In this document: in pieces, positions 5,607 through 55,996 of the stretch
Position numbering within the stretch: the first letter of the stretch is position 1
Layout: each line of letters opens with the position of its first letter
Assembly (NCBI GenBank): GCA_903813345.2
Contig: CAIIXF020000004.1
Coordinates: 23,189,985-23,253,984 of the forward strand
Length of the DNA stretch: 64,000 nt
DNA from: Owenia fusiformis
Taxonomy: Eukaryota; Annelida; Polychaeta; Sabellida; Oweniidae
Reading direction: 5' to 3'
Program-made: the position numbers and the translations under genes
The notes under the pieces: model-generated
Databases searched by the model: none
The model's input: the letters and a program-made list of their open reading frames with translations, nothing else
Told to the model about the DNA's origin: nothing

Positions 5607-8600
5607 ATGTCCAGATTTTTTAGTCTCGTTGCACTATGTTTAAGCTTCAACTTCATCGATGGCCAAGGTAAGTCACTGTATACCCTTTGCATTCGCTCAA
5701 CTTCACTTCTTAAAAGAGAGTTTCGTCTTCAGTAGTTTATTACTAGACGCTGCGCGCAGGGTAGTCACTGTGGCTGATGTCGTGGGTTCAATTTCCACAA
5801 TGTTAAGCTTCATTTACCATATTATATTTAAACTCCATAATTTGAAAGACTTATGAAATGAAGCGGACGTGGTTCTTGATTCAATGATTTTGACCATGAT
5901 CAGATCGAAATGTACATGTATCTTGCAATATACAGTACACAATATTTGGCTCGAAATTAATATTAGGGAACATGTAAGTCTTAATTTCTTCATCATACAG
6001 CTAGTAAGGACAACTGTCTATCGATCTAATTTGATTTTAACCAATATTTAATACTTTTATTCATTTATTTATTTTCAAACATCCGGTGAAATATAAACGT
6101 GCATGTACAGTTAAGGCGGATGACATCACAGTGGGCATATTATCCACTTTTAATTTTACTTTATTTGTTCACCAAACATTGTAAAACATTTTTCCTACTT
6201 ATACTTATATCGAATAACTTTAGAAAAACAAGGACATGTAGCCGAAAATGATGTTCCTAGTATACAACAGTCATCACGATTAGCGTTGAAAATATAATTT
6301 TGTTCAGATCCCCCAGATTTTATGGTGACAACGTCTTGTCACGCTGAGGGTCCAGCTTTGGTGGCGTGCCAAGAAAAATATTTTGGTGACCTAATTGGTG
6401 ACAACGGGCCTAATAGCTACGTCTGTGGTTACGACTCTGATATAGATCCCACTGGTAACAATCCTCCCGTGTGTGACATCGATGAATGCACATGCGTTAA
6501 CGGTATGTGGATATCTCCATCAAGAACTTAATAAGTCTCGGTTATGGTAAATTTAACTCGCTTGTCCTACATTAACTTAAAAGTATTTGAGAAATCTATT
6601 TTCTGGTTATTTTACTTACTCTTTATACAGGATTGCTCGCTGCAACTTCCTCTTTGGATAGTCGCTATGCAGAAGTATTTGGTGTTGACATAAGCGGTAT
6701 GGAAGCGCAAGCATACATGGATCTAGACCAAATTTTGGATGATCTGAATGATTTGTATGGAGTAGAGCTGAGCGATGAAAACAGGTTATATCTAGCTGCT
6801 AACAATGAAGAATTGAATGGTACCCCTCGTTGTACATACTTGAAAAATGTCTCTACGTCTGTATCGACTATGAAAACTCAAATAGACGACTATATATCAA
6901 ACAACCCGTCTGTATCAATTACCATATTGGGTGCACTGCAAAGGATGAGTAACTACTTCAACTGGGTGTTGACGATATATCTACCAAACTGTGAGTATTT
7001 CTATAAAAACGCCTCTCCATGTCACTTGTAGTCATAGTCACGTTGTCATTTTGATTGATTTGATTGGTTCCCATCATTTATTTAGCTTCATAATATGACT
7101 GCATCAGTGTTAACCTGGAAAGATGATATATTTGGGGGGGGGTTGACCTCGGGAACTGGTTAGTACCAAAAATTAAATACACGCCCGTAATTTTTCCAGG
7201 TGGATACGTTTTTTTAAATAATTCACGGGGGGTTCGTATTTGAAAATTTTTGTCCAGATTCACTTATAAATTGTTCAAAATGGTGAATACTTGAAAGCAT
7301 TTTGAATACATTAAGATACCATTACGAAAATGATATTTCAGTTAATTTTTCAAACCTGGCAAAAATAAGTCAATAATATAAGCAAACGCTGAGACACTAT
7401 TTGTAAAAAGGGGCAGGACACCATTGAAGAGTGGCACATGCCAAATTTTGTATTCCAAAGCTTTTATTCTTATTTGAAAGTATGACTAATATGGAAGCTA
7501 AAATATGTTATAAAAATAATTTTATTTTATATTGAATAACATTGGTTAATATGTGTATATTAGTTGCAACGAGAGAGGGTTTTACGTGTATCAGTGACGA
7601 CCAGTGCTTAGGTACTAGACATCGCAGATTATGTGGATCTGATTGCCAGTGTTCCTTGCAATGCCGAGTGAACAACGACTGTAGCGACCCCTCCAGACCA
7701 AATTGCAGGTTTTTATTATTTTATTTCATAAATATAATTGCATGTTGAATCAGCAAGTCGACAGGAATGTTAATATTATCTAGCTTTTCATCTAGGCGAT
7801 TGTTGAAAATTGTAAATTTACTTGAGAATATACATTAGAATTAAACGCAAAGACATAATTTTAAGGTAGGTGATGCAACTACAACGTACCCCGCAACTTT
7901 TCTAACATTGATGTGATATCGATCAAATTTAAAGCTAGCCTACATGTTTTCACACTATGCTTGTCATTTTAAGATCTTTATAACGAACCTGAGGCCTCAT
8001 TATCATCTGGTCGCAACGCAAAATCGCATGCGAATCGCATCGCAAGACATCGCAACGCAACTATTTCCCAAAAATGTTATTATCATTCCATCGCATCGCA
8101 AGTCTGACGCAAAGTTATCGATTTTCTGATCGCAACTAAACAAAAAGTTGCGACGACGTTTACCCTGTCGCAAATCAAATCGCAAATCTAGTTCATCTTT
8201 GAGCGTTATTTTATCTATGTTAATGGATATTTTGTGGTGTTTTATATCGGTCATCTCACTACCTGTTAAGTATTAATCAATAGTATCGAAGAAATTGTTC
8301 AATTTTATTTATTTAATATGATTAAAATATACATTTAATTGAGCCTGTAAATCCTTAAAAATCACGTTTGTTTCTAAATATTGCGAACGCATCACATACT
8401 GTATACGTCTAAGATTGGTGCCTGCAATATTTCGTGCTCTTTGGAGCATAGGATTTTCGCCAATTAAATATTTATCTAGCTAATAAAGCTTGTTTGGTGA
8501 ATTAATCTTGCCACTACTACACTAATGTTCTGAGTATTCCTAGTGTATATGTACCTCACCTACATTGTCTGCAAAAGTACAAGAACAAGAACACCAAGAT

Positions 8601-13601: not shown

Positions 13602-16600
13602 ATGGCAAGCTCTCGATATAGATATGATCAAAACTTGGACATTCGATACAAGATGGATAATCGTGACTATGGCAGCACAGTCGGGAATTCTACCAAAATC
13701 CAACAAGGCAATGAGGATTCGTCTATGATTAAAAGAAATCAGATCGTGCCAAGCTCAACAAAACCACACCTTACCGAGGAATCCATGTTTTGCGGCGGAA
13801 TAATAAAACCTGTGGTGTCTGTCGTCGCAGTATTGGTTATCACATTAACGGGCGTTGGCCTTTGTCTATACTTCACCGGTATCTTTAGAGGTAAGCACAA
13901 CCAGTAATTATTTGTTAAAATTCTGAGAGAGTAAGCAGCATTTTAAGAACGATCCATTCAAAGTCACACCGGAATAGCCTGACAACGGTTAAGTCAGATA
14001 CCGTTGTCACAAACGGTTGTTAATTTTCTATTTTTCTAGTTTTTCTTTTTATACGTTTTTCAAAATTAATGTTGAAATTACTGTATGGTTTGCGTTTAAA
14101 TATCAGGTAATCTCACTTAAACCTTTAATAATTGTTTGAGTTGTTGTTAGTAAAGGAATTATGAAGTAATTTTTGTTCCAAAATAAAAATAGGAAATATA
14201 AGACAAGACACTTCAAAAAACAACTATACAACCACAACAGTTGGTGTTCCGATCATACCAGACGTCTCGACGACAGTTGAACAAAACAACAAGATGACAA
14301 CAGAAGATACCTTGGCAACAGTTGAACAAAACGCCAGGATGACAACAGCAGATGCCTTGGCAACAGTTGAACTAAACGCCAGGATGACAACAGCAGATAC
14401 CTTTGCAACAGTTGAACAAATTGACAAGATGACAACAACAGAGCCCTTGACAACATTTGAACAAAACGTCAGGATGACAACAGCAGATGCCTTTGCAACA
14501 TTTGAACAAGACGCCAGGATGACAACAACGGATACCTTGGCAACAGTTGAACAAAATGCCAGGATGACAACAGCAGATACCTTAGCAACAGTTGAACAAA
14601 ACGCCAGGGTGACAACAGCAGATGCCCTTGCAACAGTGGAACAAAACAACAAGATGACAACAACAGAGCCCTTGACAACAGTTGAACAAAACGCCAGGAT
14701 GACAACAGTAGATACATTGACAACAGTTGAACAAAACGCCAGGATGACAACAACAGATACATTGACAACAGTTGAACAAAACGCCAGGATGACAACAGCA
14801 GATGCCTTGGCAACAGTTGAACAAAACGCCAGGATGACAACAACAGATACATTGACAACAGTTGAACAAAACGCCAGGATGACAACAACAGATGCCGTGG
14901 AAACAGTTACACAAAACGCCAGGATGACAACAGCTGATACCTTGGCAACAGTTGAACATAACGCCAGGATGACAACAGCAGATACCTTGGAAACAGTTGA
15001 ACAAAATGAAAAGATGACAACAAAAGAGCCCTTGATCAATGAAGATGATACTTTCATAGGTAATTAAAGGTCACGTCATTTCATTAGAAAAATACGTTTT
15101 TGTTATATTTATAACTTTTATATAGTAAACCCATATTTGTTATTTGCATATTTAGATGTATATTTGCGTCAAAATTATGCGTTCTTAAAAAAGGTATACG
15201 TATATCGGTCAAGTCAAGTAACTTAGTCAACATTCGATAATCGTATGTTCATCAGTATTCACTAAGAATGGTGCCACAATTGAAGTAAACCTCTGGTTAA
15301 TTATTTTCAATAAACCTATTAGCAAACGTGTAAATGATAATTTTGATGTTCTGTTACATATTGGTGAAGCAATCTTTGGGATATGACCTAAATTTCTGAT
15401 TTTCCACTGTGTCCCTGTATACCCCTACTTCAAAAGATGTATGTTATTTGTCATTTTTCATTATGAACCAACCATAAATGTATTTTTTCTTGTTTACATA
15501 CAGAATGAACTTCCTGTTTTTAAATATTGCAAGATTTTACTGTATTTATTTCTTCATGATAAGGAGCAAACAAATGCGTGTCAATTTACACTGTAATATC
15601 ATACATACTTATATTTCAAGGGTAGTATTGAAGAATAATCAAGAAAATACATGTTTTCAAATGGATTCATCCTTGTCAAAGAAGGTAAATGAGGATATGC
15701 GGTTTGAAAAACTAACAACATGTTTCAAGTTCTTACAATTCTTGATTAAAACAAATAATTTGAAAGTTGTGATTTGGAATGTAATATCCTACTCAATAAA
15801 ATGTGTTGATATTTGTGAATTTTATCTTTCGGAATGCACATTGCTGGATCACAGAACCTTGCCTTGTTCGAGATACACGAAAAATGTATTGTTGATACTT
15901 GACGCCCTTCGGATATTTGGATGTGATTGACGTTTTCTCCTACCACTGTAACTTCCAACTTAATTTTTGGAAGCCAAATGTGATAGTCACGAATTGATAT
16001 TTAAGTCACACGTTTATGCATACATCATGTGTGTACATTAACTGTCGAATACATGCCGACTTACATTTTTATAAATATCCACAGTTAACTCCAATCATCA
16101 ATTCTCGAAACGGTTTCTCATATAACCTGGTGAGTTTAATGTTTTTATTTTAATTTATAATTATGGTATCAGATTTGAGTATGATATAAGTCGAGGCTTA
16201 AACAAAGCAATAAAATTACGTGAAACCTTTTGTGAAAATTCGAACGATTTTTCAAGAATCCTCCTTCAAAGTGTTACCAAAGTGCTCCCCGGGAGTGGAA
16301 ATTTCGTCTTGTGTAATCAAAATTATAGCGGGTGGTTTGAATTTTTGTTTGAGTTTATTGCTTACATCTATAAAAAAAACCATATCGCCTAATTGAGAGC
16401 TACATGCAGATTTTGGCGATCTATCATTATAAAAGGCAAAATATTGTGCAAAAACAGGAGTTGACACGCTTTCATTTGGAAATGAAATTTCCTACATAAT
16501 CGTCGACTCATGTTTAAAAGTCATGAAAACAAGATTGAACACAAAACATTGACCCAGTTACTGTCTATTTAGCATGAAATCACTAAGGGAAATATTATTA

Positions 16601-22600: not shown

Positions 22601-25600
22601 TTCTCGAATAGGTATTCTGCCATATCAAGCTCCTGATCATCCAGTATTTGTTTAATATTGCCCGCAGAAATGAGGTTATTAGTATTACAAAAGTTAATGC
22701 CCAGGGCTAGAATAGCAAAAATTATATGCATTGAAAGATATGTCATTTCCCGGGGAAAATTGCTGGGCGTTAATGCATAATTGGCCCGCAACTATGGCCC
22801 GCCACTATGACGTCATATATTGCTCAGATCGATAAAGTAACATGAATGCCTTCTAAACTAGCACTAAAAACCCTATAACATTCCCGGCAAGGTGGTAATA
22901 ATAGTAATTGATCTGAGTACTATCCACAAAAATATTCATCTTTTTGAATTAGACTTGAATTAAATCTTCAATAAATGAAAATCTGAACCATTTTAAGATA
23001 TTCGAAAAATTCAGAAACTGCAAATAATTCAATTATAACTATTTAAATAATTTAAATTGCTAGGATATGATTATAACCTTAAAATGTAAACATTTGATTA
23101 GTTATACCAATCATTGTGATTTTAGAGCCCAAATGTTATCTCGTTTTACAGTTTCAATTGTATAAATCTTCTTGCTGTCAACGTATTTATAATACTCTAC
23201 ACTTATTTAGTGCCTGTTTATAATGATACCGACATTATTGTAATATTGAAATCATATAAGTAATAAATATCCCCAAGTGGAGGTCAATGCCCCCTTCCCC
23301 CCCCCCCCCCCCCCATTTGTGACATGGCCTTGTACGAATTAGGTTGTAGACATCAGAATGAACCCTGTTTTCATCATTCATACACCTTAATGATGTAATT
23401 TAATCGTAACAATGTACTAGCTCTCCATCTAAGAACTATCCGGAAAAATATTTAATTTTCGTAAAATAGACCCCTGCTGAAATCGTGTATAAATGAAGTT
23501 CTATAACCTTGTATGGTGCACAAAAATTCATGAATGGTCAATGATATAATCCTAACTAACAAAAGCAAATTAAAAACATAAGACTGTAACAATAAGTTTA
23601 AAAAAAAGTATACAGTGTTTGATGAGTTATACCCCCCATTGTGAACTTGGATTCCATTTTGATCTAACTTTTCAGTTGAAATTTTACATTATGCTCTCGA
23701 TATATAATAATTCATACTTTTTGCACTTATTTATTATCTATTCACAAGAAATCTTTAAAAATGATTATTTCTTTAAATAATGGACCCCTGCTTAAATCTC
23801 AAATAAATGATAAATGGTAATGTTGTGTGGTTCTCAACAAGCAATACCATATTCAGTGATATTAAATCTATCAATATAATCTATAAAAATGATTGCAACT
23901 TGAACAGGAGGTAATTTTAAAATTATAGTCAATTCCTTTAACACTATTTTTGTTGAAAACGTGTGACCATGTAATTTGCTCCCCTCGGCTTATTGTTCTT
24001 TTCAATGATACCCAGGGAGAAAACTTACTAAATATTACGCAACTGGCTTGAGCCACGGGCAGTTCAAAAGCGCAGAACGTGTTCCATTTTGATAATTGAT
24101 AAATAGAATAAAATACACTGAAAAAGCACTCCTTCGTCTGGTGTTTTGAATTATATTTTAAATATCATGTTATATATGGGTCATTTTAGATGATGGAGAG
24201 CGTTTCTGTGATACCTCACCCCTATCACACCTCAAAACATTGCCAAAAGACTGTCCACAGACTAGTGAAAATCCCCTGCTGTATGAAGTTGGTCGTTGCC
24301 GTAGAAACGAGTGTATTCAGCGGCCAAAGTCAAATACTGAATCCGAATATTGCTGTGGTCCCATACGCCAGACAACCAGAAGTATTGCATGCGTGGACTA
24401 TTCAATCGACATTGTTGTGACTTTGGAGTGTGGTTGCATCATTTGTAATCAGGCTAATATTACAGGCAATATGATAACTAGCGTTCGTAAGATCACTTTT
24501 AGCGGATTTGCTCATGATATAGTTGATAAAAATTTCCCTCTTAGATTTGGAAAGGTATTCTTATTTGATGAAGAGGTTGCAACAGCAAGTTTTAATGGTG
24601 AGTTTAGTTTTCCCGTCCCTCTTGATATGACAAGAATCGTGGTCATTTTTAAGGAAGGATTCATCAAAAATAACTTCATTGAGACATCTAAGGTGTTTAA
24701 CATACCCAAAGACTTTTCCGGTAATTTCTATAGAGACATTCCGCTTTTGAGAAAATCTACTGTTGTAGAAATTCCATCATCAGAAACGACAACTCTCTCC
24801 TTGGCTAACTCAACGTCTGGGAGTTCATTTGCTGACGTCATTATTCCCGGTGAGTCATTTTACAAAGCTAATGGTGAGAAATACAACGGTCCTGTTCAAA
24901 CAGCTATAAACTTCTTAGACCCTCGGAATAATGAAGACCTCAGTGCCATGGTAGGGGATCTAACATTCACTAATGACGATGGGGATATTGGGTCATTGCA
25001 AACATTCGGAATGTTCCACCTAGCATTTAGTGATACGGCCGGAAATGATCTTAACATCAAAGGAGAAGTAGGCATGGCAATAAGCGCTGATGTCATAGGT
25101 GCAGGACTGCAGAACGCAACGAATGTAAAGCTTTGGTCTTTTAACCCCTCCTCTGCGAGATGGGAATATGAAGGGAATTTGAGACGAGTGTCAAATAGAA
25201 AAAAGCGATCACAGGCTCAGGACACCACAGACTTTTTTGTTGGTGACGCAGTCATAACAGATCGTTACTGGTTCAACTTTGATAACAATCAGTTAAATTA
25301 CTGTTTCATTAAAGTGAAAACATATAGTGACTCGAGCTCAGCATCACCATTACCCTGGGACAGCTCTCTAGAACCTACTGTAATTTCATTGGATCAAACA
25401 TCAAGGCAGGCTGGCAGCGCAGGACGCATTGTCACAGGCAGTATGAGTAAAGATTATTTCACAGGTGTAGAATCTAATAAAGACTGCATACTAACAGTCT
25501 GTGGTGATAATGATTTCCATGGATACCTGTTCATGGACACTCCAGAAGGTTCATTGAGCGCTTCACCAAATCTTGGTGGCTCTAGCTCAGCTGTCCCCAG

Positions 25601-26503
25601 TGTGAATATAACACTTGATCAACTGAAATCAACCAGTCGAGGGAAAGTAATTGAGACGTTAGTTTCCCCACTCACATCAGATGGTCCTGTATATCATAGC
25701 AGTACACATCTCTGTTACAATCAGAGTTCACAATTCTGTATGAATTGCACTTCATCTAGACATCCAGAATGTAGATTTTGTAATAGGAAATGTATGTATC
25801 CTATTGTTTTGTCTTATGCTATGTGTTTGAAAGCAAATGAAACGGCCCCACATTATAGTTTCTATCAAAGTACAGTTTCTTTATTTGAGTATTCTGTATG
25901 TGAGACATTGCCACAAGATTGCCCTTCGGTACCAGATCTTTGGCCTTTAGCATGGTTTCCCCGAACTACACCTTCATATTGGGTTTGGTATATAAAGGTT
26001 CGCGTAGTCGTTGAGATGACAACAGAGGAATCATCTGTAAGAGTTGTAAGCAGAGGAGGAAATCATCCAGAAACCTTGGGAACCCTTTCGGTATCCGTGA
26101 AGACACAACCATAGATCAAACAACATGTATTGAATTCAAAGGAAGTGGAGATATAGTTACACAATCTGGTATAGCGTCAGACCAGACTATAGTTGAAGTT
26201 CTTGTAGAAGGCACAGACTGTACAGTAGAGTCTGTTGCTTCTAGTCTGCAACAATACCAGATAAACACAACGTATAATAATGCATCAATAGTTTCATTTA
26301 AACCACCTTCTGCCTCTCTCATAAGCGGGATAGATTTTGGGATATACGTAGATGATAATAACGATGTCCAAACTGCCAAAACTACCGCCAAAGCAAGGTG
26401 TCTATGTGCTGATTTTCAGCAAGGCCAAACGTGTAATACACCCGAACCAACAGTCGGAGTTGCAGTAACTATAACATGTAAGACTGGTGATGATTATGGT
26501 TAA
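13602..26503 (+). CDS. CILP: Cartilage intermediate layer protein-like, membrane-anchored, 7 exons (frameshift in last exon)
   Basis: Exons 13602-13890, 14193-15059, 17893-18060, 18274-18579, 18972-19080, 20405-20562 and 24190-26503 join in phase. Residues 1-65 are polar with no signal peptide. A hydrophobic segment (VVSVVAVLVITLTGVGLCLYF, about 70-90) predicts a type II membrane protein. Next come a Thr-rich repeat stalk (about 124-378), TSP1 (386-441; WTKWSLWSSCSVTC), a carboxypeptidase-regulatory-like module (442-543), an Ig domain (544-632; FTCRG, LYYCKAS) and the large CILP body (633-1403). A furin-type RKKR sits at about 969-972, where vertebrate CILP is also cleaved. Near 26086 the frame breaks: one T appears missing in CCCTTT, and the next frame continues with GIRED to TAA at 26503. 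With one base restored, the total coding length divides evenly by three (1403 aa). Confidence 0.88.
14273..15037 (+). repeat. 17 tandem copies of a 45-bp coding minisatellite
   Basis: Each unit encodes a 15-residue repeat close to TVEQNARMTTADTLA. Copies 1, 4, 9 and 17 are a variant class with a Lys before MTT; copies 4, 9 and 17 also end in EPL. The Thr content suggests an O-glycosylated mucin-like stalk between the membrane segment and TSP1. Nucleotide identity among units is high, so copy number is likely to vary between individuals. The repetition also keeps the opposite strand open in several frames, which are not genes. Confidence 0.95.
18641..18774. mobile_element. Small palindromic MITE, 134 bp
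   Basis: CTTATGTCAGGGTCACGTTT at the left pairs with AAATGTGACCAAGGCATAAG at the right, and CGGCCGGCCGAG pairs loosely with CTCAATCGGCCG inside. It lies in the CILP-like intron 18580-18971. Confidence 0.65.
20967..21143. repeat. Direct repeat, copy 1 (partner at 22173-22349)
   Basis: A block of about 177 bases starting CAATTGTTTTGAT and ending GTATCTACTTATG recurs in the same orientation about 1.2 kb downstream at roughly 85-90% identity by eye. Both copies are in the 3.6-kb last intron of the CILP-like gene. Confidence 0.75.
22173..22349. repeat. Direct repeat, copy 2 (partner at 20967-21143)
   Basis: Shares CATATATTCCTACATACG, TTGAGGGGTTTAACAG and GAAGTTTACAACG-type motifs with copy 1. 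The 1.03 kb between the copies has no recognisable coding sequence, so a solo duplication or a very short LTR-like element are both possible. Confidence 0.7.
23948..24075. repeat. Diverged half of the 48.5-49.3 kb fold-back family
   Basis: TTGTTGAAAACGTGTGACC, then ATGTAATTTGC, then TTGTTCTTTT and GATACC occur in the same order and spacing as in the right arms of the elements at 48541-48906 and 48967-49339. It lies just upstream of the last CILP exon. Confidence 0.6.
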
Positions 26504-35430: not shown

Positions 35431-36327
35431 TTAATTAATATCAGGAAAAGTAACGACAGCACTAACAATGGCGAGTCCAACTTGGAAGAGGAATGTCGTA
35501 TGAAGAATGTTACCGGCATTCCCATTATTTCCGTTTCCGTCAGTCGTGTAGCATGAGCTTGCTTCCAACGTGGCTTGATTAGCAAACGAACATTGTGCCT
35601 CACCGCCACCAGGTGGTCCACTTTGTCGCTTTTTTCGCATCATCGCGGGACCTCCCATAGAAGACACATACCCCCCTTTATAGCATCCAAGGTAATAGGG
35701 GTAATCGTGAGTGACCCGATATCGGTAATTTCCGTTCACGGTTTCTCCGTGGCATTCGTCCAAGTCGGCACTTGTTAGGTTTTGACCGGCTGAATTCAAT
35801 GGTCCATATATTGGAAATCCGTCGAGGGCAACACCTATGAATTGATCGTTTGTGCCGTCTACAATACAGTTTGGAACCATGTGGTAATGGTAGGCACCAT
35901 TTGGAGCGGGGTGGGCATTACATTCATCGAATTCCTCCGCGCCACTTCCCTCAACCGCATTACACCCTTCTAACGTAAATGGGTTGAAAATTGCGACACC
36001 ATTTTTTGCAATTCCTATCACCCCCATAGATAGACACGTTGGCTCAGAAGCAATACTTGGATTTTTAGGAATATCATATTCATGTGTCTGTGTAGATATC
36101 TCATTAGGGTTAGATCCGGCAATCGGGAAGTCGCCTGTATTATGATCTGGCACGCCATTACTCTCAAGTTTCCAAGTGTCCCCGTTGTCAGTGATATTGA
36201 CCCATCCAGAGAGTCCATGGTAAATTCCTAGCGAACCATCGTTCTCAAACAGCGCAGCTTCTTGGGCAGAGAGGCCAAGTGTACATCCCACTAGGCCCAT
36301 ACATAATAAAAAGCTTACGGTGGCCAT
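35431..36327 (-). CDS. YHYH-domain secreted or GPI-anchored protein
   Basis: A single coding exon of 298 aa with a start in strong context (ATCACCATGGCC). Residues 1-20 are a signal peptide. The core matches the YHYH family (Pfam YHYH protein): HPAPNGAYHYHMVPNC around 139-154, LDGFPIYGP at 168-176, and a second Tyr/His-type motif YRYRVTHDYPYYLGC at 201-215, where YHYH has become YRYR. A furin-type RKKR occurs at 231-234, followed by a Gly-rich linker. A C-terminal hydrophobic segment after GNAGN (about 275-293) looks like a GPI-attachment signal. The biochemical role of the family is not established. A non-coding first exon probably ends at 36709 (donor) and joins the acceptor ahead of 36335. 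Confidence 0.88.
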   Translation of the reverse strand: MATVSFLLCMGLVGCTLGLSAQEAALFENDGSLGIYHGLSGWVNITDNGDTWKLESNGVPDHNTGDFPIAGSNPNEISTQTHEYDIPKNPSIASEPTCLSMGVIGIAKNGVAIFNPFTLEGCNAVEGSGAEEFDECNAHPAPNGAYHYHMVPNCIVDGTNDQFIGVALDGFPIYGPLNSAGQNLTSADLDECHGETVNGNYRYRVTHDYPYYLGCYKGGYVSSMGGPAMMRKKRQSGPPGGGEAQCSFANQATLEASSCYTTDGNGNNGNAGNILHTTFLFQVGLAIVSAVVTFPDIN

Positions 36328-36708
36328 GGTGATTTCTGAAAGTAGACCAACAATATGCTTTATTTTATATTAGTAACGGAGTGTCAACGTACGAGCTTGA
36401 TATATTTCCATTATGAATTTCTTTAGTTAGCTAGTTAAAAATAAGGTTAATGAAAATAGAGTCTGTGCTGTGACCATCCTAGTGTTATTCTTAACGGTTT
36501 ATATAATCTAGGATGACGTCACGTATCTCACAAAATTAACTCACGATACACCAAATGCAGGTTCAATGGAATTCATGTTTAATAGCTGATTGAACTCTTA
36601 AATACTTATAAAAACATTGCAACGTATTCAGATTATCGTATATCATTGTTAACGACATAACATTTTAACAGCATGCTTTCTAATATTCTTATATAAAAAA
36701 TACCTTAC

Positions 36709-39210: not shown

Positions 39211-39216
39211 TTTATT
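39211..39216 (-). terminator. Polyadenylation signal of the SLC28 gene
   Basis: AATAAA on the minus strand about 30 bases beyond the TAA stop at 39245-39247, supporting the short last exon. Confidence 0.55.
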
Positions 39217-39244: not shown

Positions 39245-42200
39245 TTAAATGTCGGATTCTTGGTACAGCACTCCTGAAAATAGAAAATAGTCATCGTGTA
39301 TTCATTTGAGATTTTAGAATAAACCAATTTTTGTTATGCTGTCTGTTTATAATAGTAAGGGGATATTGAGCTCTTTCTCGGGAAAACGACTAGCACGTTC
39401 TGTACAGGCTCTCAGTCTCTTGCTGTTAAGTTCATAATATTTTGCAAGGGATTTTAGTGAACTAAGTCAAAAAGTCGTGTTTTTGTGTAATTGAAACATT
39501 AATCGAAACGGGACTTTAAATCAACAAAATAGGCATGTTCCATATTCTAATTTCCAGAATGTATCAAAATCGTCTGAACTTCAGATGAAATAGTAATACG
39601 TTATTTAAACAATAGTATTACTATCATTACGTATGGCTACTGCGCCTTACAAGTATACTCCTCTCCATAAGTTTGACAGCTTTCTTTTGGATAACTTATC
39701 AAATACTATTTTTGCAGTTATATGTTATTCAAACAAATCATCAAATTTGCTATAAATTTCCGAACTGCAGTAATCAAAGAACAAAATTAAGATCCATACA
39801 TCGACATGCTTTGATATTAGCTTTCTAATAAATATTCCGGTTTCCAAACTATTGAGGGATCACTGGCGGATTAGGGGGCCCAAAAAAAATTTGGGCCAAA
39901 AAAGGCCTCCAAGCCCGAAAAAGTGGACCTTTTTGGTCATTACTGGGCCTTTTAAGGCCTTATTTTTTAATTTCAGGTCAAATTTTGAAGAAAATGGGCC
40001 TCAAAGTCCTAAATTTTTTTCCGCGCAAGAGCGAACGTTTTTTCTCTGACTTCAAATTTGGGCCCCCCCCCCCCTTGTTGGTTCCCAGATCCGCCCCTGG
40101 GGATGGTATGAAAGTGTGATTTTGTTACCTGCGACGGAAGCAGTCATCAAACATGCAAGACATGCAGCCACAAACGAACTAAGCGCAATCTTTGAAATGT
40201 CCTCTGGAATTAAAATATCAATTACTGTTAGACTGTGTGTTAATTAATACATAACATACGGACGCAATAATGCATTGTTTTTGAAGCTCTCAAAATCGCA
40301 GATTCCCAATTTTGATGTAAGCACATGATGAGTGAATAAGGGTTAACACCTGATAGAGGAGTATCTATATTGCTTTGAAATCTCGCTAATTCTCGTTTTT
40401 CGTGAGATGTGCATATCAAACCTCCAATGACTTACTTTTCCTTCTTTGAATTCAGTAAACCTTTTTCTACAATAATAACTTGGATTTATAATAACTTAGA
40501 TTTATACAGTTATGTCATCTTAATAATTTTCCATGACTTTTTAAAAAAACTTGGGCCAAATTTCCATTGATGCAATGCTGAAATTCTTTAAAAACTTTGG
40601 CGGATAGAAAACGCATCCTAGATTGTGAGCAAGTGGCGTACATAATTGTGCTTAAATACCTTAACATCGAACAAAGTAAATTTCGTGTATCTCATAGGAA
40701 TTTAGATATCGAACACTACATGAGCAACAAATTTTCAGATTTTCTGACCTTTCCTTCTGGGTGCAAGAGATCCCACGGTTGCTATGTTAATTGCCAAACC
40801 AGTGATACTTGCCATGTTACAAATGGCGTAGGTTCCCAAAATCTCAGAACGAGGCTACAATGAGATAGATACACAAAGGGATAAAATTATAAAAAGAAAT
40901 AAGGGAGAGGTTAGACTGACAAAATTATATAGAGTCTTAATGAGTAAAAAGTGTAATATCTTGACAGCAATATTTTCAAAAATTGTCATATTTTTCGATA
41001 GACAATCCTAATTTCAGAGAAATATGATCAATCAACAAAAGGTATTGAAGATTTCAATTTAAAGATGTAGAAATTTCCAAATGTATTTGAAGTGAAAGTC
41101 CACTTAAAATCATGAGACTGTCCTGATAGAATTCAAAGGGACTTGTCTTTTGATAAATAGGCACGACTTGGAAAGAGAGCAAACAATGTCATTTTATCGC
41201 AACTTGCTTTGAACCCATCGTTTCCTTAAAGTATTCAATATACTGTACAATTTATATTGACTTTTGTAGAATTCAATTGACCATGTAATCAGACCAGGTA
41301 TCGGTTTACAGTAAAGGGACTCAATTCCTACAGTCTACAAGATTGAGCAATCTATAAATCAAAATTACACATACGCTAAGATAGGGCTCTTTACCCTCAA
41401 TGCGATTTTTAATTAAGTCAGATATTTTCACAAACGCGACCAGGCCACTGAGGATCGTTGACGTGCCTAGGATGTTCCCAACTTCGACGACATCCGGAAC
41501 GTCAACTCCAATCATAAGCGCCAACGGACTGAACAAATATGCACAGATTGTCTGCAAAAAATAAAAGTGCAAAATCAGGGAATCCCTTTCAAAGCGTGGT
41601 CAGTTTTATGACTCGAATCTATTCCACGAGGTCAATCTCTTTTTTAAAAAGCATCTTATATTCACAATTGAAAATAACTACACTCAGAGGAAGTGTAAGT
41701 TGCCACTCGTTATTTTTTGTGATTGAAGTTCCTTACATAATTTCGCGGCTTATCACCCCATTTCCTGATTTTGAGAGAATGTGTTTTGAGGAACAATAAA
41801 AGGTCAGTGAGGCAATTTAGAAGGTGGTGTCAAATTGCTATAGAAGTTGATTTTGAACTGTAAAGTATATGCACAACTTCAAAATCACCAACAAGTCGCC
41901 GGAGTGACATTCTACATTTCCTCCAAGCTAGATTACAATGCCCATATGTGATCCGAGGGAGAATTAAAAAACAGCGAATCATGACTCCAAAGTGCAACAA
42001 CCTACCTCAAAATTGAGACCTTCGATTCCAATTCTGCCCCCCGTCCATTTCATAGCCTCGTTTAAGAATTGGCGCATGGCTACGAATCCTATGAGGGTTG
42101 CAACGATTTGACCAAGCAAACGTGGTATGCGACCAACGGCAATTATAATCGCATGGAGCAAATTTTGTACCTCTCTGTAATGACAAAAACATGTTTTGGA

Positions 42201-45200
42201 GGATACAATTGTTAGATACGTGGTTTTGTATAACGAGAGACTGGTTATAGTTTTTGATGCTGCATTGTTTATATGATATGAAGTCGACCAACATGGCCAT
42301 TATTAAAGGTATCTTGTGACGCAACGCTTGAAACAATTAAGTTTATTTTCCATGATAACTGCTACGCAATACAAGTTTGATAAAACATCCCAAACATTCA
42401 TATGTTCTTGACTGAAAGAGAACTGCAATTTTAGGCGATGAATTTAGAGGGTATACCTTCTTTCATAATACAAACGAGTTTTTAGTTATAATTCTAGTTA
42501 GAAAATTGTACCGGATAACATTTCCTTTGATCGTACACTCCGCTCTATAATTGTGGAAATCACAACTCCTTCAATAGACTGTGTGTTAAAAGTTCATTAG
42601 AACAGAAATACCAAACCTATCACAAATACAAGTGGGAAAAATAAACAGTTTTTAGCAGTTAGCACCTTATCCAATGGATAGTCGGCATTGTCAAACTCTT
42701 AATGAAATATGTACATCGATGTTTCCCAATGTTTGGAGGGAGGTGTACATGTTGAATTCTGTGTCAACATAGGATCCATACAAGCAAGACATGGTTGCTA
42801 TTTTAGCAGTTAGCAACCTTTCAAATGCTTAGTTGGCATTGTCAAACTCTTAATGAAATATGTACATATGATTAATTGATGTTTCTCAATGTTTGGAGAG
42901 AGGTGTACATGTTGAATTCTGTGTCAACATAGAATCCATACGAGCAAGACATGGTTGCTATTTTAGCAGTTAGCAACCTTTCAAATGCATAGTCGGCATT
43001 GTCAAACTCTTCATGAAATATGTACATATGATTAATTGATGTTTCTCAATGTTTGGAGGGAGGTGTACATGTTGAATTCTGTGTCAACATAGGATCCATA
43101 CGAGCAAGACATGGTTGCTATTTTAGCAGTTAGCAACCTTTCAAATGCATAGTCGGCATTGTCAAACTCTTCATGAAATATGTACATATGATTAATCGAT
43201 GTTTCCCAATGTTTGGAGGGAGGTGCACATGTTGAATTCTGTGTCAACATTGGCACTTTACTAAACCTTGCATTTTGTGTTCATGAGCATCCCATTAGGC
43301 TTATTAGTAATGATTATGTTATTTGTTTTTATTTGTCTGTTCCTTATTAATGGTTTATTATCGGATGACTGTTAGATGTTAATAAATTACTTTCAAAAAT
43401 ATACTAAACAATACAATTAGACAAACAGAGTATCTTATGCATTTCTAGGGATTAGGTATAGTAGAGTGATTGGGCTCCGAGAAAGACATGGCACAAATAA
43501 AAATTAATATTATAGTACTATTATACCAGAAGATGGCCGTAAGCTTTATAGGAGATCAATGATTCTACTTTTGCATAATGATGTCATCAACGTACCCATA
43601 TATGGATTATACTTTTATTCGATCTATTTACTCACATCTCTGACATCATAAACTAGTGACTTGTTAACCGAAAATGAACCGTTGCTCATACCGGGGGTTT
43701 ATACATATTATGGTGTATTGGTAACATAACATTATTGCACAAGTTCAAAAATATATTCATAACTTTTTTTAAATTAATGTACTAAAATTTTCCATGGTGT
43801 TGTTTTAAGTTTATGGTAATGATTCCCAAATGGTGTAGCGGGGGGATTATACATTGCTTTTTGTACGTAAGATCATAGATTTAGATAATTGGGACTCGTG
43901 ACCTACATACTTTGAAAGAAAAGAAATTAAGTGCATGTTGTTCCTTTGTTAATTTAATTTGTAATTGACTAATATACTACTCAAAAAGGCTAAGGACCAC
44001 ACGTCTAAGTTCTCAACGCATGTTAAATTGTTGTCTTCTAATAAAAACACCATCTAGATGAATAAAATGCGAAAGAACAAGAAACTATTAACTACGGGAA
44101 AAAAGTTAAGAGAAAATTAAAAAGTGGTGGTGGACCTTAACTTAGTAGTAGTATATTTCACATCAGCAAAGGCCGAGTAAAATTAGCAGGTATTTATGGC
44201 AAATTCGTCACATGATTTGCAAGAAGTTCAATATTTTCCTCGTCTAATCGGTCACTTTTTTTCAAAAACCATCCATTTACATATTATGCTCAGAAAATAC
44301 ATTTTCGTGTACGTACTCTTTGAAGTAACATATTTCCTTTATTGCCTGTATACGTGATCTTTTTGTTTCTGGTCGCAGAAGCTTGGACATTACTAGTGCC
44401 GCAGGTGCAGACATCATAGATGCACCAATCAAACTGCTTCCGGGGACCTATGATAAAAAAAACTATATGCCCGGGATGAATAAGTGAACCGAACGAAAAT
44501 GTAGCAGATAGTCATTACGTTAACGAAAAAGAGGTAAATCATTTTTCATTCCTCTATTTTTTAATTTAGAATGACTTTCACCAATTCCTAAAACTAGATA
44601 CAGTCCTATATAAATACGATTATATTAGTGCTCACTGTGTGATTGGGCCCAAACATATATAATCTTATGTCAATGGGTATAATTGAAAACATATAAAACG
44701 ACAAACTCGACGCATTATGTAGAGCTGACACTAAACCGAACAAACACATGCACGCAATGTCAATCATGGACTATTATCAGGGTATGAGATGAATTCTGTC
44801 ATTCAAATTACCCCAATTGAGATGAACATAGCCATCCCTCCCCCAGATATGGAGGCCAGTCCACACGTCAGTACAACATGAAGCTCCGAAATGGTCATAT
44901 CGTCGAGTAAGGATAGCACTGTCATCGCTGAACCAGTCTAAAAAACAAGGAATATAAAGGATGACACAGAAATTAAAATCATCTTCATGTAGTTTGGAAT
45001 TACTCTCTCGATGATGATGGAGCGTTTTCAAACTTCAGTTTGAATTTATTTTTTGAGAGCAAATGGTAGAAGTAAAATTTGTCTCAAAGTTCGACACATG
45101 TATGAAAAGTACATCATTCTGGTCATACATGTACTTTTACAGAAACAAAAAATAAATTAACCCTCCATTTCCCATTGAAATACATGGGAATGTCGATTTC

Positions 45201-48200
45201 CAAAAATTCATCAAATTTATCATCAATTTTCGACTTATTGTAATTGAGGAAAAAAATTGAAAAAATTTGGAGGTATTGGAAATAAAGTCAAATTATGTTT
45301 TCATCAATAGTATATTAAGTATTTTCATCGCATGTTAAGTAAATAAAAATTCAAACGTAAAGAGGCTTTAACACGTAGTTCAATGGGGGAGCGAGGGTTG
45401 CCAAACTTATGGAGGGGAGTGTATGTCCATAGGACTAGCCAGGTGTGAGGCAAGAGAGGCAAATACCTCACCAAAAAATATGTTTCCCTTGTGTGCTTTG
45501 CCTCCCCTATACCTAATTATTAACCTCATGATGGCTTCGACCCTCTTTGACTTACCGTCCCTAGGAATATGTTAGCGGTAGCCACAAACGCCTCAGCCGG
45601 AACGACGGGTACAACAGCTGCAATGAGGCCACCAATCACCTTAATACATGCCTGCATCACACCAAAATGGTACAATGTAGCGTTCACAGCAGCAAAGAAT
45701 GTGGCTGTTCCAACAATCTGAAATAGATCGAGTGAACATATTGATATGAATGTAATAAAAATGACGGAAGAAGAGACATCCAATTTACACAAAATAAGTT
45801 GGCTTTGTCATCCTCGGTATTAAGAAAAAATGGCTGTCGATTGCTCTTAAATGTCAAGTTCAGAGAGGGAGTCCAGAAAAGTTAGTTTAGTTTAAAGAAT
45901 GGAGTCCTCAACTTGAGTATTCCCAAATTTCCCAGTTGATTTAAGTGAGTTAACTCATGGGAAATAAGGTATGCTGTTGATTACAAAAGTGATTTGCTCA
46001 TTTTCCTGAAATGACTTTGAAAACTACGAAAAAATCTCATTAAAATTTGAGACCCTGTCAACTAGTATGTAGCGTAAGGTAGTGCCAACTAGAGTACAAA
46101 TAATTGTTACAGAACAGAAAAAGATATCCAAGAGAACACAGATCATGACTCATGAGGAAAAAAAAAACCAACTATCCCAAATCCAACGTGAAAGTAACAA
46201 TAGCATATAGCTCTTCCCCGACAATTCAAGTAAGAATGTCACAATCCGAGACCATAACAAGAAGGGAACTTTCATTCATACTAAAATCATTACAATATAT
46301 GTTTAAGAATAAATTTAAAATTGAAAGCCACATATTAATAACATCAAAAAAGTAGATACTAGAAATAATATTCATAAAATAAAGATCTGGAGCAAACAAA
46401 ATCTAGTCTTGAAGTTCATAAGGAGCAGTGCCCCTCCACCCCCCCCCCGCCCACCCCCCACACACAAATCGAACCTGACTGGCCTGTAAGCGTATCAAAG
46501 GGTCGACATCCATTCTCAAAGCAGACGCTCTTAAATCGAGGAAATCAATGCTGAATTGTAAAATCCTCTTTACATGTTTCTATCCAAAGTAAATAAATTG
46601 ATCCTCAAAACCACAACGTTAACTTTATCAAAACAATCTCAAAACAATAGAACATACACTAATACATTAGCTACAGGTGTACATTATTTGCTGATTTGTT
46701 GATTGGAATATTGAATTTCTTAAAGTACATTACAAACACATAAAAATCATCCATGATCGGTCCAATAAACCTTTACTCTGGGAATCATACATGCTTTGTG
46801 TTATGATGTCATTTAGAAGTTTCCCCCAGTTTCAGAACAGAAATATTAACTCAATTTGTGTATCACTTATCTTCAACAACTTCATACAATTTTTCGCAGT
46901 CATAGTGGGCTTTAATATGATATCATAAATCTACCAAACATGCTCTAGTTTCTTTGGTTCACAAAAAGGGGTTTAAAAAAACATGTCATGTTGTTTTAAC
47001 GATGATCTCATTTTTCCTTTTTGCTGACAACCATTGCTTATTGCAAAGTATGTCATCATACATCTAGCCAATACTAATACAGCAAAACAGATGTAGAAAT
47101 ATGATTAACTTAAACCAAGGGGAGGAGATTTCCCAAAGAGTTGATATTGGGTCACGTGGTATCCACGTGATAGGTCCATATAAGACCCCTAGAACCACAA
47201 AGGGATCCAACCGTTATCCGCCATTTTGGATGTCATCTGATAAATGTAGGACCATGGAGGGAAGCAAGGGGGAAGTCCATGATACCAAGTGATACCAAAT
47301 AATTGTGGGAGCTACTCACTTCTGCAATATACCTTAAGTGTCTTCAAGTTGATTCAAAAAGAGCAAGAATGTATTTCCAAGCTCCATAAGGTAAACATCA
47401 GTTTTTTGATAACTTACTTACGCGAAAAATAAAATGATCCGTCCATGACTCTCCAAACACACCAATTAGTCCAGCTCTCGAATACGCGAGAAAACGCGTG
47501 ATTTCTCCAGAAAACGCAGACATTGCATCTGAGCCAGTCTTCCAGCGGAGTAACAGCAAACCGATTAGAAACTGTAGCAGCACACCAGAGTAAACGATGT
47601 CCCATCTTATCTAGATTATTGAATATACATTTAACAAATGTAAACTCTGTTGTAAATTCAATTAACTGTTAATCTTGATAATATAAATACAAAATGAGAA
47701 TATCATATTTCACAAAGTCCTAAATTCAATGAAGGAAGTACATTTCTGTTTGACCACTTACCGAAACTACATGAAGCAACTAACAAATGGAATATGTTAA
47801 TTACATTAATCTAATTCATTCTCAAATATGTGTGTGTCCATTATATATTGTAAACGTTAGCCTTTAAGTTTTTTATTACATTGATTTATTACGAATCCTT
47901 TAATAGTTAAATACTATCAATATTATCAGAAAGGGACCAACTCAGTAATTTTGTCATCTTTCGGTTCAGATATGTTACAGGGTAGATAAAAAAAAGTATA
48001 AGCTTTTGCTAATTTGCTAACACCCCAGTCACATTTCTAACGGCGACCTTGCGGTCTATCATTTCTGCGGCCAGTAACATTTCTACGCTCGCCGTGGAAT
48101 TTCTGCGCTCTCATACTTTTGCAGTCACATTTCCCACGGCAGCCGCACGGTGAACTTTAAATTTCTGTTGATAAATAATACTTTTTCATTTTATTTACAT

Positions 48201-50498
48201 CGGGACAATTTATAAATGTTATTCATAGTGCTAGGATGTAATATCAAATGAAAAGTGATCGTGAAACATTGACAAATAATGATTCAATCTTGTTGAGTCA
48301 GTTGATTTCTACGGGGACCTCAAAAATGAACAAATAGTATATCTCCGAGTTATAATTTCTACGGCGACCCTGCGGCCTGTAAAAAACTGGATACGCCGTA
48401 CGGAGGCCGCAAGGCGAGCGTAGTTTTCCTACGCTCGCCGCAGAAAAACACTGATTTAATTGATCTGCGGTCGACGCACGGCCTCCGTACGACAAATGTG
48501 ACTGGGGTGTAAATCTTGTTACAAATTCTTGTTACAAGTGGTGCATTGCGTAATAGGTAATGATATTTCCCCCCAGGTATCAAAAAAAGAACAAAAAGCC
48601 CTGTAGCGCAAATTTCATGGTCGTATGTTTTCCGAGCGCACTAACACTCACATAAACCTTTTGAGAGACATCACGATTTATTGCAATCGAACTCCTGTGG
48701 TGCACTAGCAATTGCAACACGCCGGCGCAGTTGACGTACGCTGTTAACCAACAAGTTTAACACATTGTAATTAGCGGTGTGAGCTAGTGCGCTTGGATGA
48801 ACTGTTTTTGTTGAAAACGTGTGAGCATGTAATTTGCATCGCATGGGCTCATAGTTCTTTTTCGTGATACCTAGAGGGAATACTTATTATTTAGTATACA
48901 ATGCACTCCCAACGGGTAGTTCAAAAACGCGGTCTAATGCTGTTTTTTTAATTCCCCGCGGCGGTGGTGCATTGCGTAATTGGTGAGATTTTCCCCCAGG
49001 TATCAAGAATAAGAACAAAAGGCCCCGTAGCGGAAATTACATGGTCGCATGTTTTCAACAACAAAAAAACTTATCCGAGCACACTAACACTCATATTAAA
49101 TTTTTGAAAGACATTACGGTTTTTTACAATCGAACTCCTGTGGTGTACTAGCAACAAGCCGGCGCAGTTGACATACGCTGTTAACCGACAAGTTTGACAC
49201 ACCGTTATTAGCGGTGTAAGTGCGCTTGAATCAACTGCTTTTTTGTTAAAAACGTGTGAATGTGTAATTTGCATCGCATGGGCTCATTGTTCTTTTTCTT
49301 GATACATAAGGGTAACTTATGATATATTTTGCAATGCACTCTCCTGCGGGTAATTCAAAAACGCAATCTAAAAGTAGGCTTTGACATCGTAAATCTAATA
49401 TATACCTAGTTTCCTAGTTAGTTCAAAAAATTTACTGGAAAGGTTAAACGATTATAGATTACATTTAGATCGACCTGTTGACATTAAGGGGTTTAACACA
49501 CCATGACTTTATTGTGTGAAAACAATACTCCAATTCCGAGAATCATCATTATTCCAAATAAGGACACAATCTTCAGGGGTGTTTGCCAGACGTCCACGAA
49601 AGTGACGCCAAGTATCACTAATACAGTAAGTACTTTTAGAGATACTATCAATCTGGAAATATACATAGTATGCGAAAGTGCCATAAGGGTGAATACTGAA
49701 AGAGTATTAAAACAGACAGAAAACGAATATCTATAAGTACATATTTTGCCATAAGGGAACGAATCCCTAATGTCCCAAAATATGGTTAAATGTACAAGGA
49801 ATGAGAGTCAAGCACCCCCCCCCCCCCCAGTTCCCTCCACCCAGAAACCATAGTCACAATCCAACACATCAGGCCATGCAGAAAAGACTAGTTATCTTCT
49901 TATCTCAATTTCATGCACTTTTTAATTCACAATATTATTCAACTGTTATGAATTATAAAAAGCTAAAACAAAAAGAAAATGCATTTTTATTTTATCCATA
50001 CGGCTTATCGTTTGATCCTTTGAACTTTAAAGAGGTTTAAAACACGTGACTAAATAGTGTATTCAAGATTCACTAAATGTTGTTTTAGGGGAGGGGATAG
50101 GGCCTGGGGCCTTGTTATCATTACCTGCGACGTTGAGTGTATCCAATGCATTCGTGAAACCTTTTTTGAAGTCGATGACACCAACGAATGAAACATCCCG
50201 AAAATAGGCTATGAAGAATATGCAGAACAAAAATCCCAACAAATCCAGCCGTAAGTCCTAATAGAACGACATTCTTGTGGAAATCCAAAAAGATTGCGTA
50301 TCCAAAATACACAGAGTATGCCAAGACTAAAAATACGCGTGTCCATAGTCGAATGTTTGTGTTGTGTGTGTATTTGAATTTTTGTACTTTACAGATCACG
50401 TCACTAACCAATTTGTTAATCCTTGCGTAGTCATTAGGATCATATTCTATCGTTGATGTTCCCACACAGTCATTTGCTAAATTCCCCTTTGTATCCAT
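39245..50498 (-). CDS. SLC28A3: Concentrative nucleoside transporter (SLC28/CNT) homologue with altered substrate site, 11 exons
   Basis: Exons (minus) 50498-50125, 49652-49502, 47610-47422, 45717-45556, 44937-44812, 44447-44317, 42174-42006, 41551-41375, 40854-40749, 40203-40129 and 39273-39245 close in phase to 562 aa. Family landmarks run in order: LLQFLIGLLLLRWKTG, VFGESWTDHF, AEAFVATANIFLG, MTISELHVVLTCGLASISGG, IGASMMSAPAALVMSKLL, IEGLNFETICAYLFSPLALMI, YLSPRSEILGTYAIC and PRRKEDISKIAL, ending AGVLYQESDI. CNTs are multi-pass plasma membrane sodium- or proton-coupled nucleoside importers. Here GQTE reads GTTG, NEFVAY reads SGLVAF, and CGFANxSS reads CNMASITG. Asn of ANIF and Ser of SISG are kept. 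The C-tail is much shorter than in human CNT3. Transport of ordinary nucleosides is therefore doubtful. Confidence 0.9.
39846..40100. mobile_element. Short element with GGCGGAT/ATCCGCC ends
   Basis: ACTGGCGGATTAGGGGGCCC at the left and GGGCCCCCC...CCCAGATCCGCCCCTGG at the right form imperfect inverted ends around a GGGCCAAAAAAGGCCT-rich interior. It lies in the last SLC28 intron and is non-coding. Confidence 0.6.
42650..43252. repeat. Tandem repeat, about 161-bp unit, 4 copies
   Basis: Units start near 42655, 42806, 42966 and 43127, each with GCAGTTAGCA, GTCGGCATTGTCAAACTCTT, GTTTGGAGGGAGGTG and GAATTCTGTGTCAACAT. The first copy lacks about 10 bases and the last is partial. Located in the SLC28 intron 42175-44316. 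Spurious short frames repeat through it. Confidence 0.9.
43972..44156. mobile_element. Candidate MITE with ATATACTACT ends
   Basis: ATATACTACTCAAAAAGGCTAAGG at left against CCTTAACTTAGTAGTAGTATAT at right, inverted with gaps. About 185 bp, no coding capacity. Boundaries uncertain. Confidence 0.4.
45168..45421. mobile_element. Solo right arm of element family A
   Basis: Matches the right half of the 869-1649 element from the TTTCCCATTG region to the terminal CTTATGGAGGGGAGTG, followed by TA (45422-45423). The left arm is missing. It lies in an SLC28 intron. Confidence 0.8.
46170..46520. repeat. Dispersed repeat family B, copy 2
   Basis: Similar to 31376-31680 over TTTCATTCATACTAAAATCA, ATAACATCAAAAAAGTAGAT, AGTCTTGAAGTTCATA and CAAAGGGTCGACATCC. 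It contains a C-rich run (about 46436-46458). Confidence 0.6.
48021..48509. mobile_element. PIF/Harbinger-type MITE with TAA duplication
   Basis: CACCCCAGTCACATTT (from 48021) and AAATGTGACTGGGGTG (to 48509) are exact inverted ends, flanked by TAA on both sides (48018-48020 and 48510-48512). The interior is GC-rich for this window, with repeated TACGCTCGCCG and CGGCCTCCGTACG motifs. It lies in the SLC28 intron 47611-49501. Confidence 0.75.
48541..48906. mobile_element. Fold-back element, copy 1 of a tandem pair
   Basis: GTGCATTGCGTAAT...CAGGTATCA...AGAACAAAAAGCC...GCAAATTTCATG on the left is inverted at the right as CATGTAATTTGC...GGCTCATAGTTCTTTTT...TGATACCTAG...ATGCAC. The arms are about 100 bases. 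The middle contains CTCCTGTGGTGCACTAGCAA and CGCCGGCGCAGTTGAC. Confidence 0.7.
48967..49339. mobile_element. Fold-back element, copy 2 of a tandem pair
   Basis: A near copy of 48541-48906 in the same orientation, only about 60 bases downstream. It shares GTGCATTGCGTAATTGGT, CCCCCAGGTATCAAG, CTCCTGTGGTG and GCCGGCGCAGTTGACATACG. The pair suggests a duplication or a target preference for its own sequence. Confidence 0.7.
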
Positions 50499-54929: not shown

Positions 54930-55996
54930 CGAGGGTTGTCCCAGAAGTAATGCACTTTATGCTCTAACTTTATCAATGGTTAATATTTTTCCATGAAATT
55001 TTCAGTAAATGTTCCTTAGAGACATTTTGATTATTCTACAAATTTTCATGTTGACTGATAAAACTATATTGATGTTATAATAAAATCAAGTAGGTGAGTT
55101 TGGGTAGGGCGGGGCAGGTTATACAGTCACGTCAAAAGGAATAAAAAATTGAAAATATGAAATAATTGATCAACAAATACCATTTTGTGTAGCTATAAGA
55201 AGTATGCCCAAAAATACATTTTAAGATACTAAATTACAATGAGCACATCTGAGATTTAATGGATGTATATTACACAGTGTCATATTTCACATTTTCTCAG
55301 AATATTGCCCTTTGTATGTTATGTACTTTTGATGCCTGTCAGGTCAAACACTCTTGGCAATTTCTTCCACTGTGACTTGTGAAGTCTTTGCCTCCCATGT
55401 TTGGAGTTGTCATCCAGGGTCAAGTCATCTCTTTTAAATCTCTTCTGCCACCTCATAATTGTAGTTCTATCTGGTATATACTCCTTATATACTTTCTTCA
55501 TGGTAGCATAAGTTTTGCATGGCTGTGAGTCCAAGTGAAGTATGAAATTAGGCCACCAAACGCAAGGCCTTCTGTTATCAGGTGAGAATTTCAGCCATTT
55601 TTGCAATTTTTTGACTTTGACTGTATTTGAATTTTTGACTATTGAACTGTGATATTATGACAACACAGTGCTAAATGTCATTATTTGTACTTGTTTAACA
55701 TCATGCTGAATAAATTTAACAATTTCCCAAACATTTTGATCATTTAAAAGAAAGAAATATTAATAAAATAACACTTTGGATCTTTTCATAATTAGAGAAA
55801 TTGGTACCTGCCCCGCCTACCCCTACCCCCATGTTGCTATAGCAACCATATTAAGACTTAATATTAATGTTTGATGCTGAAACTTCAGAATATAATAGAC
55901 AAGACTTCGATTGTTATATACACAAAATTTCGGCTGAATTGAAGAATATTGAAGCAAGTTAGAGCATATAGTGCATTACTTCTGGGACAACCCTCG
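54930..55996. mobile_element. Mariner-like element, 1067 bp, decayed
   Basis: CGAGGGTTGTCCCAGAAGTA (from 54930) and TACTTCTGGGACAACCCTCG (to 55996) are perfect inverted ends with TA on both sides (54928-54929, 55997-55998). The inverted similarity runs on through AATGCACTTTATGCTCTAACTT. It is close to known mariner ends with a GTCCCAAAAGTA-like core. An inner inverted pair (GTAGGGCGGGGCAGGT near 55110 and ACCTGCCCCGCCTACC near 55807) marks a second palindrome. Only a transposase N-terminal relic remains. Confidence 0.85.
55319..55606 (-). pseudogene. Mariner transposase N-terminal helix-turn-helix relic
   Basis: 95 codons containing PDRTTIMRWQKRFKRDDLTL then DDNSKHGRQ. This corresponds to the second helix-turn-helix and the D-x-x-R/K-x-GRP linker of mariner transposases. 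The catalytic DDD/DDE domain is absent, so it cannot be active. Confidence 0.6.

Follow-up and report, generated by a model that had tools for sequence, protein, structure and literature searches.

A divergent SLC28 homologue in Owenia fusiformis retains the sodium-site positions and has replaced seven of eight nucleoside contacts

What does a member of the SLC28/CNT family do once the residues that hold the nucleoside have been replaced? The question is raised by a gene on the minus strand of a 64,000-nucleotide stretch of Owenia fusiformis DNA (hereafter, the window), which a sequence-only reading had described as an intact SLC28 homologue lacking nucleoside-binding residues. We rebuilt this gene, compared its product with canonical CNTs, and weighed the possible explanations of its altered motifs.

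The rebuilt gene (minus strand, 50498-39245) has 11 exons and encodes a 562-aa product, with the start codon at 50498 and the stop codon ending at 39245. Its ATG has an A at -3 and a G at +4. All ten introns are GT-AG and the phases close, confirming the earlier description of an intact gene; no broken frame, in-frame stop or lost splice site of the kind expected of a pseudogene was found across the 562 codons and ten introns. The features of the locus are as follows.

50125-50498, minus strand: exon 1; start codon, short N-terminus and initial portion of the hydrophobic N-terminal region (phmmer alignment to the N-terminal region of CNT3 chains)
49502-49652, minus strand: exon 2; the N-terminal region ends and the CNT core begins (KIVSLFG)
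47422-47610, minus strand: exon 3; Nucleos_tra2_N region
45556-45717, minus strand: exon 4; to the HP1 tip, ANIFLGT; sodium-site N287 (45573-45571) and L290; T292 (45558-45556) replaces Gln154
44812-44937, minus strand: exon 5; T293 (equivalent to Thr155); G294 (44934-44932) replaces Glu156; sodium-site S321/I322 (44853-44848); G326 (44838-44836) replaces Val188
44313-44447, minus strand: exon 6; VPGSSLIGASMMSAPAAL...
42006-42170, minus strand: exon 7; H385 replaces Asp/Glu247; A390, I394 and Q400 replace Gly252, Gly256 and Asn262
41375-41551, minus strand: exon 8; HP2; S465 replaces Lys327; S469/G470 (G470 at 41446-41444) replace Asn331/Glu332
40749-40854, minus strand: exon 9; CNMASITGLAIN; M507 (40815-40813) for Phe366, S509 (40809-40807) for Asn368, G512 (40800-40798) for Ser371
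40129-40203, minus strand: exon 10; remainder of the core; includes C546, aligned with Cys602 of human CNT3 (hCNT3), a residue of the proposed second sodium site
39245-39273, minus strand: exon 11; short C-terminus GVLYQESDI and stop
39211-39216, minus strand: AATAAA, candidate polyadenylation signal, 29 nt past the stop

The GC content of the coding sequence was 0.44, compared with 0.36 across the whole locus. A tandem repeat (42650-43250; 160 bp, 3.8 copies) lies within the intron preceding exon 7, and the second intron holds diverged direct repeats (48561-49315) that are 423-443 bp apart and 78-89% alike. Elsewhere in the window are a threonine-rich open frame built on a 45-nt tandem repeat of 16.7 copies (14165-15064, plus strand), a gene like that of cartilage intermediate layer protein (CILP; 24162-26500, plus strand) whose CILP domains were matched by two overlapping open stretches, and a YHYH-domain protein of 312 open codons (35434-36369, minus strand). 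Weak Ig-like matches neighbour the SLC28 homologue, and a weak, sub-cut-off match to the Mos1 transposase HTH domain (55322-55654, minus strand) is possibly a mariner remnant. The introns together with the CILP-like, YHYH and Ig-like neighbours would suit an invertebrate genome.

Wrong exons or an assembly error could in principle produce odd motifs, an explanation that we consider very improbable and that our data largely refute. The model is known from DNA alone, and the exon 6-7 junction is the one junction at which, as read from the sequence, alternative donors and acceptors are possible; the alignment to hCNT3 crosses this junction without a gap. However, six canonical CNT queries matched the same core exons and nothing else below E 1 in the window, and the altered codons sit within aligned exons. 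Sequencing error is not plausible, because about 11 nucleotide changes (a hand count from the codons) would be needed at the contact codons. RNA evidence of exons restoring GQTE, NEFVAY or FANxSS had been named as a finding that would overturn the sequence-only reading; as a partial test, the window was searched with the canonical queries, which revealed no further significant copy of the exons for HP1, HP2 or TM8, and the protein itself, used as the query, found no paralogue there. An extra 67-nt exon at approximately 42578-42512, picked out by eye for its splice-like ends, was rejected, as the alignment to hCNT3 has no need of the 22 residues that it would contribute.

A search of PDB chains with the product gave CNT3 as the closest match (8tzd, the best-scoring chain, E 4.3e-81; 6ksw, SLC28 member 3, E 1.4e-76), with alignments spanning both the core and the N-terminal region; vcCNT (3tij) was matched over the core (E 6.2e-51). 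Chain 8tzd and the 8tz1 series are presumably bovine CNT3. Beyond residue 152, the alignment to hCNT3 is interrupted just twice, by a one-residue and a seven-residue gap. The Pfam models Nucleos_tra2_N (62.6 bits, cut-off 27) and Nucleos_tra2_C (169.6 bits, cut-off 32.3) were both passed; the Gate (nucleoside recognition) domain scored 22.4 bits, below its cut-off of 29.6, compared with 70.6 for hCNT3, which passes all three. The NupC-type model TIGR00804 gave 303.9 bits, under the curated cut-off of 442 (hCNT3 control, 515.5). A tree was built from 85 sequences (the SLC28 homologue, two mammalian CNT3s, vcCNT, and 40 and 41 loci, respectively, from the two prokaryotic samples described below). 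In it, the homologue joined the mammalian CNT3s with support of 100/93, a placement made with only two animal references and in a tree where long rows are placed unsurely. Judged by these relationships, the protein is an SLC28/CNT member by descent, with its fold set by homology. No relatives were found among 92 pattern matches in viral contigs.

Table 3 of PMC5465479 gives the residues of the sodium site and seven contacts to uridine, and an eighth nucleoside contact, V375 of hCNT3 (V188 of vcCNT), comes from PMC7440666. Compared with these eight positions (Q154, T155, E156, V188, E332, F366, N368 and S371 in vcCNT numbering), the SLC28 homologue reads T292, G294, G326, G470, M507, S509 and G512 at Q154, E156, V188, E332, F366, N368 and S371, respectively; T293, at T155, is the only contact retained. 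The loss of nucleoside-binding residues was thus verified, and the rebuilt product reads GTTG for GQTE, SGLVAF for NEFVAY and MASITG for FANxSS, with the Gly294 and Gly470 codons where they had been placed. The earlier list of contacts also stood when checked against the two sources. Its account of change in three motifs was correct in that all three are altered; it understated the change, since F366 and V188 are replaced too.

The sodium-site positions N149, V152, S183 and I184 correspond to N287, L290, S321 and I322, each of which is a residue type that also occurs in canonical CNTs; the Asn of ANIF and the Ser of SISG remain, as had been proposed. The one change, V152 to L290, falls at a backbone contact of the vcCNT sodium site (PMC5465479). 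C546 aligns with Cys602 of hCNT3, a proposed component of a second sodium site (PMC7440666). On the strength of these kept positions, the protein would still bind sodium, and it may still make the elevator movement.

Mutants of hCNT3 bear on whether the protein could nevertheless transport nucleosides, binding them through other residues or water. Such residual transport, which we regard as quite improbable, agrees with the retention of the T155 equivalent and with the mutants N565A and E343A, which still bind uridine (at about 280 uM and, in weakened form, about 1.19 mM, respectively; PMC7440666). However, all three ribose contacts (E332, N368 and S371) are replaced here, and uridine binding was abolished in E519Q, E519A and S568P (PMC7440666), the last of which differs from the Ser-to-Gly change in the homologue. 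Table 3 of PMC5465479 marks hCNT3 mutants at E343, E519, S568 and F563 as non-functional. In agreement with E519Q, E519A and S568P, the ribose or base would no longer be held in the known way. Among the titles and abstract openings listed by searches of open-licence full-text literature, none concerned SLC28 members without the nucleoside contacts.

How the family as a whole treats these positions was assessed in two prokaryotic samples. The first comprised 80 CNT loci found partly via the pattern NIFxG[QT]T[EG] and is therefore biased at positions 149-156, so that the second was relied on there. For this second sample (n = 41), two Pfam surveys of 399 genomes, with 96 match rows between them, supplied 40 rows: the lowest-scoring 21 that still passed the cut-off, all under 228 bits (leaving out the second piece of one split match), and 19 with higher scores. 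The locus L090 was added to these. E332, F366 and N368 were each present in 80/80 loci of the first sample and S371 in 78/80. In the second, E156 was invariant (41/41), E332, F366 and N368 were each found in 40/41 and S371 in 38/41 (Thr in the rest); the corresponding counts were 24/41 for N149, 25/41 for Q154, 11/41 for T155, 13/41 for V188 and 32/41 for Ser or Thr at 183. These second-sample counts indicate that, in prokaryotic CNTs, the sodium site and the contacts to the base are free to vary, whereas E156 and the ribose clamp are held. The SLC28 homologue is the reverse of this pattern, keeping the sodium site and replacing E156 and the clamp. When the 121 loci were pooled, Glu occupied E156 in 121 (the first 80 being pattern-biased at this position) and E332 in 120, and Asn occupied N368 in 120; L090 was the sole exception at E332 and N368.

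L090 is the second CNT of a Microcoleus genome that has a canonical CNT as well, and the tree placed it apart from the SLC28 homologue. A deliberate search for its relatives in 146 cyanobacterial genomes yielded 12 loci, from L132 (L090 itself) to L143, that are 59-100% identical to L090. In all 12, the QTE of HP1 is one residue shorter, reading IE or VE, and N368 is replaced by His; E332 is replaced in 11 (L142 has Glu in the column), and the NEFVAY of HP2 reads ETAIPPY in nine. The L131 copy (6329-7891) scored 276.8 bits with the nupC model, below the cut-off of 442, and passed the Gate model with 47.3 bits. As the alignments indicate, the HP1, HP2 and TM8 motifs are altered independently in this group, with a conserved result. 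Since most of the changes are shared among these loci, a CNT with an altered ribose clamp can persist across species, and the group may represent a CNT subfamily that takes a different substrate. Gene context was uninformative as a clue to that substrate: homologues of the DUF3318 protein of L131 occurred in three of five regions, and two other pairs of neighbours were common to two of five (Pfam was run on L131 only, and sharing between regions was determined by BLASTP).

Change in the SLC28 homologue was not confined to the three motifs. Among 83 canonical CNTs, a mostly bacterial set with two mammals, we identified 74 columns with conservation of 95% or more. The homologue differs at 27 of the 74; the corresponding figures are 6 for hCNT3 and 5 for bovine CNT3, and no canonical row exceeded 7 when each was left out in turn, and its end branch was the longest of the 85 in the tree, at 2.69 changes per column. 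Chance does not explain the loss of contacts, because six of the seven conserved contact columns differ and only 21 of the 67 others do (Fisher p = 0.008); stricter conservation thresholds gave p values of 0.010 and 0.012.

Charged residues behaved similarly. Of the 22 columns where 70% or more of the family carries a charge, the homologue has lost it at 11, and for the 11 columns with charge in 95% or more, the loss affects five (E156, R162, D/E247, K327 and E332). Three of these five are nearly fixed in the second sample (K or R at 327, 41/41; R or K at 162, 39/41; D or E at 247, 39/41), and the charges that the homologue keeps vary there (E142, 28/41; E172, 22/41; K218, 16/41). The charges therefore show the same reversal as the contacts, with family-held charges lost and variable ones kept. 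The His at 247 also occurs in 1/80 of the first sample. Six charges were gained where less than 10% of the family is charged (R359, R412, E417, K420, R425 and E486).

Glycines 252, 256, 365, 377 and 378 are replaced by Ala, Ile, Asn, Ala and Thr, respectively. In terms of summed residue volume, the eight contacts lose about 345 cubic angstroms, and the five glycine positions gain about 274. Shrinkage at the contacts combined with larger residues at the glycines may reflect a reshaped pocket, an interpretation weakened by the variability of the glycines: the second sample has Gly in 29/41 at 252, 39/41 at 256, 28/41 at 365, 31/41 at 377 and 22/41 at 378, and hCNT3 itself has Ser at the 256 position.

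Divergence on this scale raises the possibility of decay. We simulated neutral point mutation of the coding sequence, with 200 runs per level; the 36% level corresponds to the 27 of 74 conserved columns and assumes build-up without constraint. At this level, stops appeared in 200/200 runs (mean 9, at least 3 in each). Old pseudogene decay is therefore unlikely, in line with the earlier reading of an intact gene. A recently inactivated or relaxed duplicate in which decay is only beginning is a separate matter; the long end branch and the excess of changed conserved columns would suit it, and 5/200 runs at 20% change and 14/200 at 10% were free of stops. However, the gene has no stop, no frame break and ten intact introns, the simulated neutral route to its observed divergence left stops in every run, and its product matches hCNT3 at 0.62 of the most conserved columns as opposed to 0.22-0.37 elsewhere; we consider recent inactivation improbable. 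The changes away from the contacts (21/67), together with the consensus being kept at 0.62 of the most conserved columns compared with 0.89 in hCNT3, would also be produced by relaxed constraint.

Taken as a maintained gene, the SLC28 homologue probably carries something else or no longer carries. Glycine and small hydroxyl residues now predominate at and next to the aligned contacts (T292, T293, G294, S469, G470, S509, T511 and G512), so that the likeliest cargo would be not a nucleoside but some other solute that is small, polar and uncharged; the six gained charges may count against the notion of an uncharged pocket. We judge the chances to be about even that this is a functional, fast-evolved paralogue that has kept sodium binding and the elevator and moves such a cargo. 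A broader proposal, which we hold more tentatively, is that a CNT in an animal lineage became a sodium-driven elevator transporter for another uncharged small solute, its clamp emptied and its pocket reshaped, with a comparable change occurring independently in cyanobacteria.

Alternatively, the protein may be a non-transporting or uncoupled paralogue that acts, for example, as a sensor, as a sodium leak path or as a regulatory member of trimers that it forms together with ordinary CNTs. E519 of hCNT3 is reported to be important for cation coupling too (PMC5465479), and coupling may therefore be lost in the homologue, in which both binding glutamates are missing along with R162 and K327; moreover, hCNT3 is a trimer (PMC7440666). 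Set against this, the sodium site, which a mere trimer partner would not obviously require, is kept, and the alignment to hCNT3 beyond residue 152 is nearly gapless. We regard a non-transporting role as rather unlikely. In an animal protein with a sodium site and no clamp, the recognition of cargo would be set apart from the machinery for sodium and the elevator, and such a protein would serve as a test of substrate change in elevator transporters. It also cautions against calling such genes nucleoside transporters on homology alone.

Among known systems, the cyanobacterial group resembles the SLC28 homologue in that its members are CNT homologues in which N368 and, with one exception, E332 are replaced; unlike the homologue, it keeps a Glu aligned with E156, carries the one-residue HP1 deletion, mostly has ETAIPPY in HP2, and includes a copy that passes the Gate model. 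vcCNT shares the core and the sodium site at 32% identity; however, its GQTE, NEFVAY and FANxSS motifs are those altered here, and the N-terminal region of the homologue is absent from bacterial CNTs (PMC7440666). Mammalian CNT3 (SLC28A3; 6ksw and the 8tz1 series) differs in holding the seven replaced contacts as well as R349, K514 and E434, and in having longer termini than the short N- and C-termini of our gene model, whereas its 36% identity, the N-terminal region beyond the bacterial core, the SAP and APxRK motifs, the sodium-site positions and the Cys602 equivalent are all shared with the SLC28 homologue.
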